Shown in pieces: positions 60,386-64,000 of a stretch of 64,000 nt of DNA (position 1 is its first letter; the number at the start of each line of letters is the position of its first letter). Both the position numbers and the translations under genes were made by a program. This stretch comes from Agrobacterium larrymoorei (GTDB lineage Bacteria; Pseudomonadota; Alphaproteobacteria; Rhizobiales; Rhizobiaceae). A model generated the notes under the pieces. It saw nothing but the letters and a program-made list of their open reading frames with translations. It ran no database searches and was not told where the DNA came from. Where the stretch lies: NCBI RefSeq assembly GCF_030819275.1, contig NZ_JAUTBL010000001.1, positions 1,208,501 through 1,272,500 of the forward strand. The letters run 5' to 3'.

Positions 60386-61456
60386 ATGGACGCTATCAAC
60401 ATGACGATTAACAGTTTTTACGCTTCGGAAGGCGAGCCTTCGGAATCGAAAGTCACAACGGATTACGATACCCTGCGTGAGCTCTTGCGGAGCATCTTCA
60501 TCCGCGTGGGCGCGAGCTCTGCGGTTGCCGCACTTCTGTCATCGAACTGTGCCAACTGCGAGCGCGATGGGGCGCTGTCACACGGAATTTTCCGCATTCC
60601 GGGATACGTGAGCTCGATCCGGAGCGGGTGGGTAGATCCTTCGGCGGTCCCTTCCGTGGAAGACGTTGCAGCGGCATTTTTGCGCGTCGATGCCATGAAC
60701 GGCTTTGCCCTGCCAGCACTTGCCGCTGCGTCTCCTCTCCTCATAGAGAAGGCACGTCGCAATGGTATCGCAATAGCGGCGATCCGCAATTCGCACCATT
60801 TCAGCGCATTGTGGCCGGATGTGGAGACTTTTGCTGAAATGGGCTTGCTGGCCGTGAGTATGGTCAACAGCTTTGCCTGCACTGTTCCCTTCGACGGAAA
60901 AAAGCCGACCTTCGGTACAAATCCGATTGCGTTCGCCGCACCGCGTGGCGCTGGCAGCCCTCTCGTAGCCGATCTTGCGACAAGCGCAATCGCTAATGGC
61001 GACGTTCAGATTGCTGCGCGTCAGGGCTTTACGCTTCCTCCTGGTTACGGAGTGGACCGAGATGGCAAAGCGACAACCGATCCCAACCGCGTTCTGGACG
61101 GCGGGGCGCTCCTGACATTCGGAGGCTACAAAGGTTCCGCCGTTTCGATGATGATCGAGCTATTCGCCGCCGCTCTGACTGGCGGCAAGTTCTCCTATGA
61201 GGTCGACTGGTCTGACCATCCCGGCGCGCAGACACCCCACACGGGTCAAGTCGTTATCGTCATTGATCCTGACTGCGGCAGAAAAACGGTTTTCGCGCAA
61301 AGGGTAAATGCGCTCACCGAGCGCCTAATGAAAGTTGGTGTTTCCCGTCTGCCCGGTGACCGGCGGCACACAAGTCGCGCTCTATCCATGAAAAATGGAA
61401 TTTTGCTTCAGCTTGCCGATTGGCAACGCCTGAATGATATGGCTAATCAGGGCTAA
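60386..61456 (+). CDS. dpkA: Delta1-piperideine-2-carboxylate/pyrroline-2-carboxylate reductase-type enzyme (Ldh family)
   Basis: NAD(P)H-dependent oxidoreductase, 356 aa, of the malate/L-sulfolactate/L-lactate dehydrogenase fold. ERDGALSHGIFRIPGYVSSI (with conserved His), AIRNSHHFSALWPDVE (catalytic His), FGTNPIAFAAPR and FGGYKGSAVSMMIEL are close to Pseudomonas DpkA, which reduces the cyclic imines made from D-lysine or D-proline to L-pipecolate or L-proline. Relatives include ureidoglycolate dehydrogenase AllD, so the substrate is not certain. The ATG at 60386 or one at 60401 may be the start; neither has a strong ribosome binding site. Divergent from the hyu/M20 operon. Confidence 0.85.
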   Translation: MDAINMTINSFYASEGEPSESKVTTDYDTLRELLRSIFIRVGASSAVAALLSSNCANCERDGALSHGIFRIPGYVSSIRSGWVDPSAVPSVEDVAAAFLRVDAMNGFALPALAAASPLLIEKARRNGIAIAAIRNSHHFSALWPDVETFAEMGLLAVSMVNSFACTVPFDGKKPTFGTNPIAFAAPRGAGSPLVADLATSAIANGDVQIAARQGFTLPPGYGVDRDGKATTDPNRVLDGGALLTFGGYKGSAVSMMIELFAAALTGGKFSYEVDWSDHPGAQTPHTGQVVIVIDPDCGRKTVFAQRVNALTERLMKVGVSRLPGDRRHTSRALSMKNGILLQLADWQRLNDMANQG

Positions 61457-61522: not shown

Positions 61523-62167
61523 ATGGCGATTTTGAAGAATGATCAGACCGACAGGGCTTCCGATGATGCACCGGATCGCGGATCGCGCCCTCATTCTCGG
61601 TCGCTTTCTACCACCTTGCGGCGCCTGCGGCAGGACGGCGGCTTCAGCATCGGCGAGCTTGCAGAACGTAGTGGCCTCGCGCCCTCGACGCTTTCTAAAA
61701 TAGAAAACGCGCAGATGTCGCCGACTTACGAAACGATCCTTAGCCTCGCACACGGCCTTGATATAGATGTGTCGGAGCTCTTTTCTCACAAACCGTCCAC
61801 CCCCATTAGTGGCCGCCGCGCAATAACCCGCAAAGGCGAAGGTGCAGTCATGACCGTCGGTAATTATACCTATGAGCTTCTGTGCGCGGACATCGCAAAC
61901 AAAAAACTCGTCCCGCTTCTCACCCGCATAGAGGCGCGGTCCGTTAAAGAATTCGAGATGCTGGTCACACATACAGGTGAGGAGTTTGTCTATGTCCTCG
62001 AAGGTTGCGTCACGCTGCATACCAGTCTCTATGCCACGACCGTGTTGAATGCGGGCGACAGCTGTTATTTCGACAGCATGATGGGGCACGCGCTCGTCAG
62101 CACCTCCGAGAATCCAGCGGTGATCCTCTGGGTATGTTCTAATGTTATAAGCCCCCTTGCGGGATAA
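61523..62167 (+). CDS. XRE-family regulator with C-terminal cupin
   Basis: A 214-aa regulator: N-terminal helix-turn-helix (about residues 28-85, LRRLRQDGGFSIGELAERSG, LAPSTLSKIENAQMSPTYET) and C-terminal cupin_2 ligand domain (about 125-205, HTGEEFVYVLEGCV, AGDSCYFDSMMGHALVS). Such proteins often control amino acid or polyamine catabolic operons (PuuR-like). It follows dpkA by 66 bp on the same strand with its own GAGGT site, and probably regulates dpkA and/or the divergent operon. Confidence 0.88.
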   Translation: MAILKNDQTDRASDDAPDRGSRPHSRSLSTTLRRLRQDGGFSIGELAERSGLAPSTLSKIENAQMSPTYETILSLAHGLDIDVSELFSHKPSTPISGRRAITRKGEGAVMTVGNYTYELLCADIANKKLVPLLTRIEARSVKEFEMLVTHTGEEFVYVLEGCVTLHTSLYATTVLNAGDSCYFDSMMGHALVSTSENPAVILWVCSNVISPLAG

Positions 62168-62288
62168 GCGAAAGCATTGCGCGTGTCGCAAAACGACGCG
62201 CTTGCAATTGAACGGACCCCCCGTCGCGGGTGGTGGCATGGTGAGTGTCATCGCAAAGATGACCACCTCACCGAGTGCTACGCCTTTA

Positions 62289-62957
62289 GAGCGTTTCCCC
62301 TTCACGCTGGATCATATCCACATGAGTTGAGGTAGTTCCGGGCTTTTTGTGGCTGGACCTGACCAATCAGCGTGCCGAGGCGATCCCATAGGCGGGTTAC
62401 GGTTTTCTCGGCAGCTTTTCATGGGAGTGCCCTCAGCTTGGAGAAGGCCTTTTCTATGGGATTGAAGTCCGAGCTATATGGCGGAAGGGCATCATGGTCG
62501 CACCTGCCGCTTCGATCATTTCTCGCGCTGCAGGTTGTTTGTGGCTGGATAGATTATCGAAAATGAAGGGCTGACTTGCTCGCGATGATTTCCTGGGCTG
62601 CAAGAGCGTCACGAAGCTCAAACAACGTCCCATCCCGGTGCTCTGCAAGCCAGGCCATGATGAGAGGGCATGAGCTTCGATCTTGTGGGAGCTGCGGTCG
62701 CCACCAAGCAGACCGGAACGAACGTTCCCCTACCGGATTTGCAGGCTATGCCAACGGCTTACGCTGGCCGCACTGACGCCGAAACCCTCCGCAGCCTCCC
62801 TATGCGAAGCGCCGCCGTCAACTGCGGCAAGCACGCGCATGCGAAGACCAACGGAAAGCGCTTTCGACATATCTGCCGACCTCCATCGGCAGATAGTTTG
62901 AATCAGAATGAAAGTGAGTTGAGAATCAATTTGATTCAATCCGTCAGGGAAACGCTC
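62289..62957 (-). mobile_element. Internally deleted IS630-family element with intact ends
   Basis: The ends are GAGCGTTTCCC and GGGAAACGCTC, perfect inverted repeats, each flanked by TA (62287-62288 and 62958-62959), the target duplication of IS630/Tc1-type elements. Inside, on the minus strand, are a transposase N-terminus (MSKALSVGLRMRVLAAVDGG, EAAEGFGVSAASVSRWHS) at about 62872-62735 and a C-terminal piece (FIFDNLSSHKQPAAREMIEA, AFSKLRAL) at about 62570-62400, in different frames with the middle missing. At 669 bp it is much shorter than a full element of about 1.1 kb. It cannot make its own transposase but could be moved in trans. Confidence 0.85.
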
Positions 62958-62968
62958 TAGGCGCGACT

Positions 62969-63223
62969 TTAGTGCGATGCTCCGGAGATGAAGCTCGGCA
63001 CGTAATCCCCCTCACCGGTGCCTTCAGCACCATCCACTCCGCGTTTGCTGATTTCCTCAACCAGCGAACCTAAAGCCAAATCGAGGCAGTAGGTCGGAAA
63101 CTCAAGCTCGAGTTCCTTGGCACTGTTGCGCGCATATGTGACAAGCCGAGCAATCGAAACCAGCTCGTGTGCGATATCGCCGTTTTCGCCAGCATTTTTT
63201 TCAAGAGTGTCGAGCGCCATCAT
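62969..63223 (-). CDS. Unknown small protein next to tfuA
   Basis: An 84-aa acidic, mostly helical protein (ATG at 63223; a TTG one codon up would give 85). Middle part HELVSIARLVTYARNSAKEL and YCLDLALGSLVEEISK, then a flexible Gly/Glu tail (GAEGTGEGDY) ending SFISGASH. AAGGA precedes the start. It lies 119 bp after tfuA on the same strand. I do not recognise the family. Position and the leader-plus-tail look allow it to be a precursor or accessory of a TfuA/YcaO locus, but no cysteine- or glycine-rich core is evident, so this is only a possibility. Confidence 0.6.
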   Translation of the reverse strand: MMALDTLEKNAGENGDIAHELVSIARLVTYARNSAKELELEFPTYCLDLALGSLVEEISKRGVDGAEGTGEGDYVPSFISGASH

Positions 63224-63345
63224 CAATCCTTCATTCCAAACCGAAATTCTACGGCGAAGGATAAATTAGAACTTCTGCGATTGCGCGTGACATAGGCGTG
63301 ACACAGCTTGGAGTGCCGTACAGGATCAGATTACAACCTGCGACG

Positions 63346-64000
63346 TTAAAGGATTTTCCGCCACTGCATTGTCGAGGCGAAGGTCCAGTCCGCGGGAACT
63401 TGCACGCACTTGTCGTCAGCCGCCGCTATGGCGTCCAGCAATTTTAATCCATCGAGCCGTTTCTGGTTGATAGCGTTAGTCCGCAACAACACTTCTAGGC
63501 GTTCTCGCGATGAATGTTCCGGCAGGTTGGCATTGGCGACGATCGCCCGGTAAGTCCGCTCCTTAAAGAACATGAGTTCAGCGCTTGCCCTGAGGCTCGC
63601 ATATTCCGCGTGGTCAAGTTCACGCCGCAACGACAGGTCATCGAGTGTTGCGAAGACATTCACCAAGGGCTCGGACAGCGACACATAGTTCATCTCCCGT
63701 GGACCATGGATTTGGGCGACATCGGAATCGTCAACCCGTTCGCCACTGGCATAACGGCTATAAATTTTGCCAATCCCGATCATCCCGAATGCTGCACATT
63801 CCGCAGCCCTCAGAGCGCCCATACTGCTTGAGCCATAGACGCGAGCGCCCTGAGAGAGAGCAAATAGGATTTCCTTATGCCAGATCGGAGCTACATCCTC
63901 AAAATTACCGTCGATCAGGCCGATCACAGTCGCGCCGTCATTAACCGCGGCCAGGATATCTCTGTGCTTGGCCGGCCCGCGGACTTCGACGTCCGCCGGG
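63346..64000 (-). CDS. tfuA: TfuA-family protein, N-terminus beyond window edge
   Basis: About 218 codons of a TfuA core-domain protein. From the edge the frame reads PADVEVRGPAKHRDILAAV, then VIGLIDGNFEDVAPIWHKEI, LSQGARVYGSSSMGALRAAE and CAAFGMIGIGKIYSRYASGE, the conserved TfuA core. The frame is open to 64000, so an internal GTG (63927) is not the start; about 15-20 residues should be missing. TfuA proteins are partners of YcaO enzymes: tfuA is named from trifolitoxin production in Rhizobium leguminosarum, and YcaO-TfuA pairs have been linked to peptide thioamidation. A YcaO gene should lie just to the right. Confidence 0.88.
   Translation of the reverse strand, partial: PADVEVRGPAKHRDILAAVNDGATVIGLIDGNFEDVAPIWHKEILFALSQGARVYGSSSMGALRAAECAAFGMIGIGKIYSRYASGERVDDSDVAQIHGPREMNYVSLSEPLVNVFATLDDLSLRRELDHAEYASLRASAELMFFKERTYRAIVANANLPEHSSRERLEVLLRTNAINQKRLDGLKLLDAIAAADDKCVQVPADWTFASTMQWRKIL

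Follow-up and report, generated by a model that had tools for sequence, protein, structure and literature searches.

A YcaO-TfuA locus of Agrobacterium larrymoorei with a candidate 72-residue substrate and a putative operator for a single small gene

Which molecule does the YcaO-TfuA chemistry of Agrobacterium larrymoorei act on, and what is the small gene behind tfuA for? The stretch of DNA that we analysed (the window; 64,000 nucleotides, C1:1208501-1272500 of a two-contig genome of 4.88 Mb) ends on its right in a tfuA gene, followed by a frame of 84-85 codons and a mobile element. The original prediction, made from the window alone, had proposed a YcaO-TfuA locus here and had considered the small frame as a possible substrate. 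The locus and the linkage of the small protein to it were confirmed; as substrate, a second small gene (s72) upstream of ycaO fits better, and the small gene behind tfuA (s85) resembles a regulated output gene.

Reading to the right of position 64,000 revealed the genome's sole ycaO gene, directly upstream of tfuA and overlapping it by 4 bases. The two belong to a unit of six genes on the minus strand that runs inwards in the order XRE regulator, TPR regulator, s72, ycaO, tfuA and s85 (Table 1), with s85 coming about 120 bases after tfuA. In genome searches YcaO, TfuA, s85 and s72 gave one match each. Compared with the A. cavarae copy (locus L033), all six genes have dN/dS ratios of 0.09 to 0.23 and DNA conservation ends at the s85 stop codon; together with its own dN/dS of 0.23 and 23 database relatives, this indicates that s85 is a real gene. 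The mobile element that was expected behind it is a degraded insertion sequence (IS) with perfect 13-bp inverted repeats (62287-62299 and 62947-62959), whose internal frame matches HTH_23 (E 3.5e-6) and, below the cut-off, an IS630-type family (PF01710, E 0.005). A gene of the malate/L-lactate dehydrogenase family (PF02615; window 60386-61456) near the IS and an HTH-cupin regulator adjoining it (window 61523-62167) are apparently unrelated. At L002 (9155-13616), inspection by eye suggested a TonB-dependent receptor, a FecR-like gene and an ECF sigma factor upstream of the system.

Table 1. Positions of the genes and sequence elements described in the text (window, numbering of the 64,000-nucleotide stretch; C1, genome contig)
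Feature	Position	Strand	Remarks
XRE HTH regulator	C1:1276060-1276521	-	outside window; 153 aa; HTH_3 E 3.2e-15
SARP-like/TPR regulator	C1:1274053-1276008	-	outside window; 651 aa
s72, candidate precursor	C1:1273804-1274022	-	outside window; 72 aa; between TPR regulator and ycaO
ycaO	C1:1272547-1273773	-	outside window; 408 aa
tfuA start ATG	C1:1272550	-	50 bases right of window edge
tfuA, 3' part	window 63346..64000	-	217 of 234 residues within window
Putative s85 operator, TGTCACGC-CTA-TGTCACGC	window 63285..63303	-	heptamer direct repeat, 11-bp period
Candidate -10 hexamer, TATCCT	window 63258..63263	-	22 bases after second heptamer
s85	window 62969..63226	-	83-85 aa; likely start 63220
Degraded IS	window 62287..62959		9 bases beyond s85 stop; not part of system

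Both enzymes could be assigned to their families. As predicted, the gene at the edge encodes a TfuA protein (PF07812, E 1e-40; 138.7 bits, cut-off 30); its nearest solved relative by sequence is 6xp8 (E 2.7e-23), and the segments SMGALRA and GxGKxY are common to both. YcaO matches PF02624 (E about 6.7e-64 to 9e-64), with 6pe3 (MJ1094) as the nearest solved chain (E 1.2e-35). The best curated models for both enzymes are those of thioglycine formation in McrA (methanogenesis marker 1 YcaO with TfuA; PMC5589413), with glycine again the proposed site; unlike in that system, YcaO (TIGR03266, 202.2 bits, cut-off 365) and TfuA (NF033432, 165.4 bits, cut-off 235.2) both score below the curated cut-offs, and the proposed substrate is a small protein, not McrA. 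TfuA is described as a hydrolase that acts with thiocarboxylated carriers of the ThiS type (PMC13063428). YcaO has in addition a match to the SagD cyclodehydratase model that stays under the cut-off (116.6 bits, cut-off 219.25). No azol(in)e partner, E1-like or ocin-ThiF with an RRE, had a Pfam match among the six conserved genes, a search that a divergent RRE could escape, and domain searches of the same genes gave no protease, peptidase or exporter. A YcaO enzyme and a TfuA protein encoded side by side are the gene content of a YcaO-TfuA pathway, so that the locus is probably such a system, with a thioamide as the product predicted from sequence.

We collected 112 loci by their YcaO gene, namely that of the window, 31 from related genomes, and the best 80 of 324 database contigs, these 80 being nearly all from Rhizobiaceae or Phyllobacteriaceae; L068 duplicates L033 and was left out of the YcaO-tree, operator, linkage and s85 last-residue counts. 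Among the 112, s85 was found in 96, the TPR regulator in 96, TfuA in 92, the XRE regulator in 90 and s72 in 88, and all six genes occurred together in 68 of 111 (L068 removed). The position of s72 is largely fixed, directly downstream of the regulator in 82/87 loci and directly upstream of the YcaO frame in 84/87. Where genes were missing from the locus they were found elsewhere in the genome: TfuA in 19/19 genomes queried (those of 18 of the 19 loci with no TfuA match among the 80 from database contigs, the short L107 being the one left aside, plus that of L106), and s72 in 10/10 genomes whose YcaO locus in that set of 80 had none, the best match always lying beside a regulator gene. At 20 TfuA places that were fetched, eight had an XRE gene upstream, seven were divergent from a regulator gene and three adjoined YcaO, while two had none of these three within the fetched 1.5 kb.

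The link between s85 and YcaO is strict in 101 related genomes, whose YcaO matches we divided into a group I and a group II of our own definition. The s72 and s85 profiles drew in part on the same loci, which makes presence in these genomes partly a matter of construction: in 39/39 genomes with group I (18) or group II (21), s85 has a match on the contig of YcaO and no more than 3 kb away from it, and one was found in 1/62 others, as a weak match of 31 residues (Fisher p 3e-27, ignoring the kinship of the genomes), and s72 is present in 18/18 genomes with a group I YcaO, with a strong match in 0/83 others (four of which gave weak matches, E > 1e-4, within long frames). The proposed tie between the small protein and the tfuA locus thus held up, as did that between tfuA and an adjoining ycaO. 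In 385 genomes drawn evenly from the class, a sample with few close relatives in which up to 15 first-look candidates were scored per genome, only the window's own s72 was found at E 1e-5. In the seven group II loci L056-L062 a frame of 142 aa occupies the s72 position between the TPR regulator and YcaO, some 0.5 kb upstream of the latter; both the YcaO and the TfuA match of L062 are split into two pieces.

In a quick YcaO tree the window's protein groups with L033 and with loci of Rhizobium, Pseudorhizobium and Neorhizobium (SH-aLRT 100, seven rows), whereas the remaining group I copies of Agrobacterium, which are 45-48% identical to it, fall elsewhere. Because of this placement, the window's version probably either came in by horizontal transfer or represents a different paralogue.

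Which of the two small proteins is the substrate? The s72 family, for which we assembled 200 unique precursors using the best 120 of 320 database relatives (P0092 being nearly L049, and P0129 nearly P0138), combines a conserved front, MAKVVVIGxPGExGLWxADLDAGTVTPL...KGVDFAVAV, with a tail whose length is exactly 15 residues in 156 of the 195 that could be parsed. Glycine, any residue, a mostly hydrophobic residue and mostly Asp/Glu follow one another in 187/195 parsed tails; five of the 200 had no parsed tail. In 16/200 the tail unit is repeated, for example as four copies of FSGKLE (L034), three of GLHE (L049), three of SGGFMD (L141, Shinella granuli), about six units of the GRMDE type (L079), AFSG units with longer linkers (L108, L119, L123) and four longer units with SGHxD-type ends (L142). 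The count started from 17/195 tails with at least two matches of a regular expression, from which four were dropped by eye (L071, L098, P0055, P0110; their extra match precedes the core, and they remain in the position frequencies) and to which L076, L108 and L119, which the expression could not score, were added. Three AFSG units also occur in L180, outside the 200-member set. In the window's own precursor the core is single, repeated cores being found in relatives. The label of single or multiple cores changes at least seven times on a quick YcaO tree of the rows with a precursor, and with all rows included, strongly supported branches require at least five changes. Separately, a frame 401-691 bases upstream of a distant YcaO match (L051) carries four copies of a VTPTQVCGKISPKA-type unit and is possibly an unrelated repeating precursor.

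Repetition of a short unit in the tail is a signature of RiPP cores, and we therefore read the s72 tail as such a core. A conserved leader, a short and sometimes tandem core and a gene beside the modifying enzyme characterise RiPP precursors, and the s72 family has all of them, which makes s72 the likelier substrate of YcaO-TfuA on sequence grounds. A repeating core modified by a YcaO-TfuA pair has a proven precedent in thiovarsolin (varA/varY/varT, Streptomyces varsoviensis; PMC6511847), where a YcaO and a TfuA likewise accompany a precursor with a varying number of core repeats and no specific protease is found in the cluster; unlike there, where the core is APR, the core here is Gly-x-hydrophobic-Asp/Glu (the two were compared by core motif alone), and the locus is tied to s85 and to two regulators, one SARP-like/TPR and one XRE. 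Pathways of the thiovarsolin type are further characterised by accessory genes for heme oxygenase-like, amidinotransferase and ATP-grasp proteins. In the proposed pathway, a part of about 57 residues would serve as leader or recognition region and the 15-residue tail, ending ...DDAFSGHLDG, would hold the core; YcaO would activate a backbone amide in this tail and TfuA would help deliver sulfur, giving a thioamide. The near-invariant Gly68 is the most likely site, as suggested by the conservation of this glycine and by the thioglycine of McrA.

The serine before this glycine bears on an alternative in which YcaO forms an azoline or other ring at Ser67 or elsewhere, and no thioamide. SG is a typical azoline site, and Ser precedes the motif glycine in 128 of 218 counted motifs, to which the weak SagD match of YcaO may be added. 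However, Ala (40) or Gly (37) takes the place of Ser in 77/218, and a dispensable Ser speaks against oxazoline as the general product; heterocyclisation of Ser in that general role was rejected for this reason. The presence of TfuA in the window's genome and in all 19 others queried, the McrA-type model as the best NCBIfam match of YcaO, and MJ1094 as its nearest solved chain also argue against ring formation, which we regard as improbable.

A different question is whether the tail is ever released. The predicted structure of s72 has strands at residues 4-8, 15-19 and 24-28, a helix at 35-44 and no regular structure from residue 45 on. Since the front is predicted to be partly structured, s72 may function as a whole modified protein from which no peptide is cut, its thioamidated tail staying attached as does Gly465 of McrA, for instance as a partner of the TPR regulator. 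The front is conserved almost as a domain is, no protease or exporter was found among the six conserved genes, and McrA and uL16 offer precedents (PMC5589413, PMC13063428). Against this stand the tandem tail units in 16 of the 200 precursors, as in RiPPs, and the modest confidence of the model (pLDDT 76, pTM 0.50), and we hold an attached tail to be possible, with the odds against it. The s72 profile matched no solved structure and no Pfam family, and NCBIfam searches for s72 and s85 gave matches of three families to a single member each, which we take as chance.

The s85 protein looks different. Its start is probably the second ATG, giving 83 aa, because of the spacing of the ribosome site (judged by eye) and the lengths of its relatives, 20 of the 23 in the database being 83-84 aa long. 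Its predicted structure is a hairpin of two helices, at residues 3-36 and 40-66, with pLDDT blocks of 93-98 over residues 21-60, followed by a disordered tail. Its profile matched no Pfam family, and six matches among solved structures (E 0.11-0.98) were not convincing. As first choice of precursor, s85 was rejected because of its variable tail, its apparent own promoter and the predicted hairpin. Its last residue (window 62972-62974) is nonetheless confined to H (44), C (29), Q (16) or N (6) in 95/95 loci, with at least seven changes on a quick s85 tree, and His is the last residue of 21 of the 23 database relatives, the exceptions being P0022 (Ser) and P0023, a 50-aa piece. This constrained end could mark a modified or processed terminus of s85 as a substrate or second substrate, and s85 still adjoins YcaO in loci with neither TfuA nor s72; but each of positions -2 to -8 holds 10-16 kinds of residue, no repeated unit was seen by eye, and the promoter and hairpin speak against it as well, so that we consider this role very improbable.

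The gap upstream of s85 pointed to its regulation. This gap, which begins at tfuA or, in loci with no tfuA, at ycaO, contains a direct repeat of a heptamer, TGTCACG-N4-TGTCACG or TGCAACG-N4-TGCAACG, with N5 and hence a 12-bp period in 12 loci. A first scan of 63 parsed gaps yielded 41 exact repeats at the 11-bp period against 0.7 in shuffles, and the repeat was eventually found in 87/88 group I loci with s85 against 0.66/88 in shuffles (one of the 87 is doubtful by its letters, and a slightly different pattern again gave 87/88). The seven group II loci L056-L062, in which the motif was not seen, were left out of the operator and -10 counts. A hexamer [TC]ANNNT follows the repeat at 21 or 22 bases in 75/87 loci, against at most 15 at any other scanned offset; the window's version, TATCCT, is weak in itself, and its position is conserved in relatives. 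With this offset, the repeats sit where an activator overlapping the -35 region would bind. Scans for consensus promoters and terminators gave no excess over shuffles (2 vs 2.8 and 1 vs 6.2, respectively). From these sequence patterns, s85 seems to have its own promoter.

The repeat is also rare outside this context. The window's genome holds one perfect site, the one upstream of s85, and three with two mismatches, compared with two matches for a reversed control. Across the 101 related genomes, 15 sites fit the TGCAACG form with CGC after it perfectly, and 15/15 lie just upstream of s85 matches, including two s85 copies away from YcaO (G020:C15 and G047:C23); none of five one-mismatch variant sites in these genomes stands before s85. 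Of the two distant copies, the one on G047:C23 (L165, 4422-7658) comes with XRE, TPR regulator, s72, s85 and a perfect operator and with no local YcaO or TfuA, and that on G020:C15 (L168, 5195-6636) consists of an XRE gene, then s85 with a perfect operator, none of the other four genes being found in the fetched 11 kb.

A candidate for the protein that reads this site is the 651-aa regulator of the cluster, which has an N-terminal DNA-binding and BTAD-like region and C-terminal TPRs (TPR_19 in 14/15 regulators; the BTAD model PF03704 matches 1/15, at E 1.5e-8, which is not the window's own). SARP sites are heptameric direct repeats with spacers of at least 4 nt, classically at 11 bp, that overlap the -35 region (PMC10972967). 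The s85 repeats follow this design as far as sequence geometry goes, with the 12-bp period of 12 loci as a variation. With the SARP family of Streptomyces the system shares heptamers with a 4-nt spacer and perhaps the N-terminal arrangement (the BTAD-like region being found by Pfam in one of 15 relatives); unlike that family, the regulator is alphaproteobacterial, ends in a TPR region and apparently has one target gene, which is not an enzyme gene.

Because of the geometry and the recurrence of the repeat, we infer that the TPR regulator binds it and activates s85 alone; the operator could also be bound by another protein. The operator type tracks residue 66 of the recognition helix in 77/77 typed loci (Ser with CA in 24/24, Lys or Gln with TC in 53/53), and L135, the sole group I locus with s85 and without the operator, has a Thr there. 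On the regulator tree this match corresponds to a single change, so that it is not independent evidence, and an independent co-evolution of operator and regulator was not supported.

Taken together, these results suggest that the locus is likely a YcaO-TfuA modification system with s72 as its substrate, coupled to its own one-gene switch for s85. In this arrangement the SARP-like/TPR regulator would bind the heptamer repeat upstream of s85 and activate that one promoter, and since it would act on this promoter alone, s85, a small helix-hairpin protein, would be the regulated output. Features that count against this reading are the single core of the window's own precursor, the partly structured s72 front, the rare BTAD match among the regulators, the group II loci and L135, in which the repeat was not seen, the loci L165 and L168, and the SagD match of YcaO. 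A further and weaker step would make the modified s72 tail the ligand of the TPR regulator. Such a closed intracellular circuit, widespread in Rhizobiaceae, with s85 alone as regulon and no exported product, we put forward tentatively, as a reading that may well prove wrong.

The opposite view takes the product for an exported peptide that resembles trifolitoxin and serves antibacterial action or competition, with the regulators merely controlling its production; it would agree with a YcaO-TfuA pair and repeating cores, which fit a natural product. One survey counted more than 500 TfuA clusters in Rhizobium and describes glycosyltransferases and ABC transporters as common in the dominant proteobacterial families (PMC8120280). 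On the other hand, the six conserved genes gave no exporter or peptidase, every perfect operator copy found stands before s85, and the core motif varies little, which we would not expect of a weapon. An exported peptide is accordingly unlikely in our judgement. No trifolitoxin-like partner was recognised among the six genes, as judged without tfx query sequences. The tfx locus of Rhizobium is itself a case of YcaO/TfuA-type chemistry.

YcaO-TfuA clusters have already been catalogued in bulk, Agrobacterium being among the dominant families, with 7,799 precursor candidates predicted and listed in supplements (PMC8120280), among which s72 may be found. The main text of that survey contains neither "repeat" nor "tetratricopeptide", and no statement of what the TfuA clusters modify or control was found there. 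In the literature searched, which was that accessible without subscription, we found neither s72 nor its core nor the operator described, and no report of a signalling role of backbone thioamidation. What would set the system apart is a precursor family of its own and a regulon of one gene. Now that a candidate substrate has been named, its short core and probable modification site predicted and an operator with one site located, a common but unexplained rhizobial cluster becomes testable. Should the modified tail indeed feed the regulator, thioamidation of a peptide backbone would serve in signalling.
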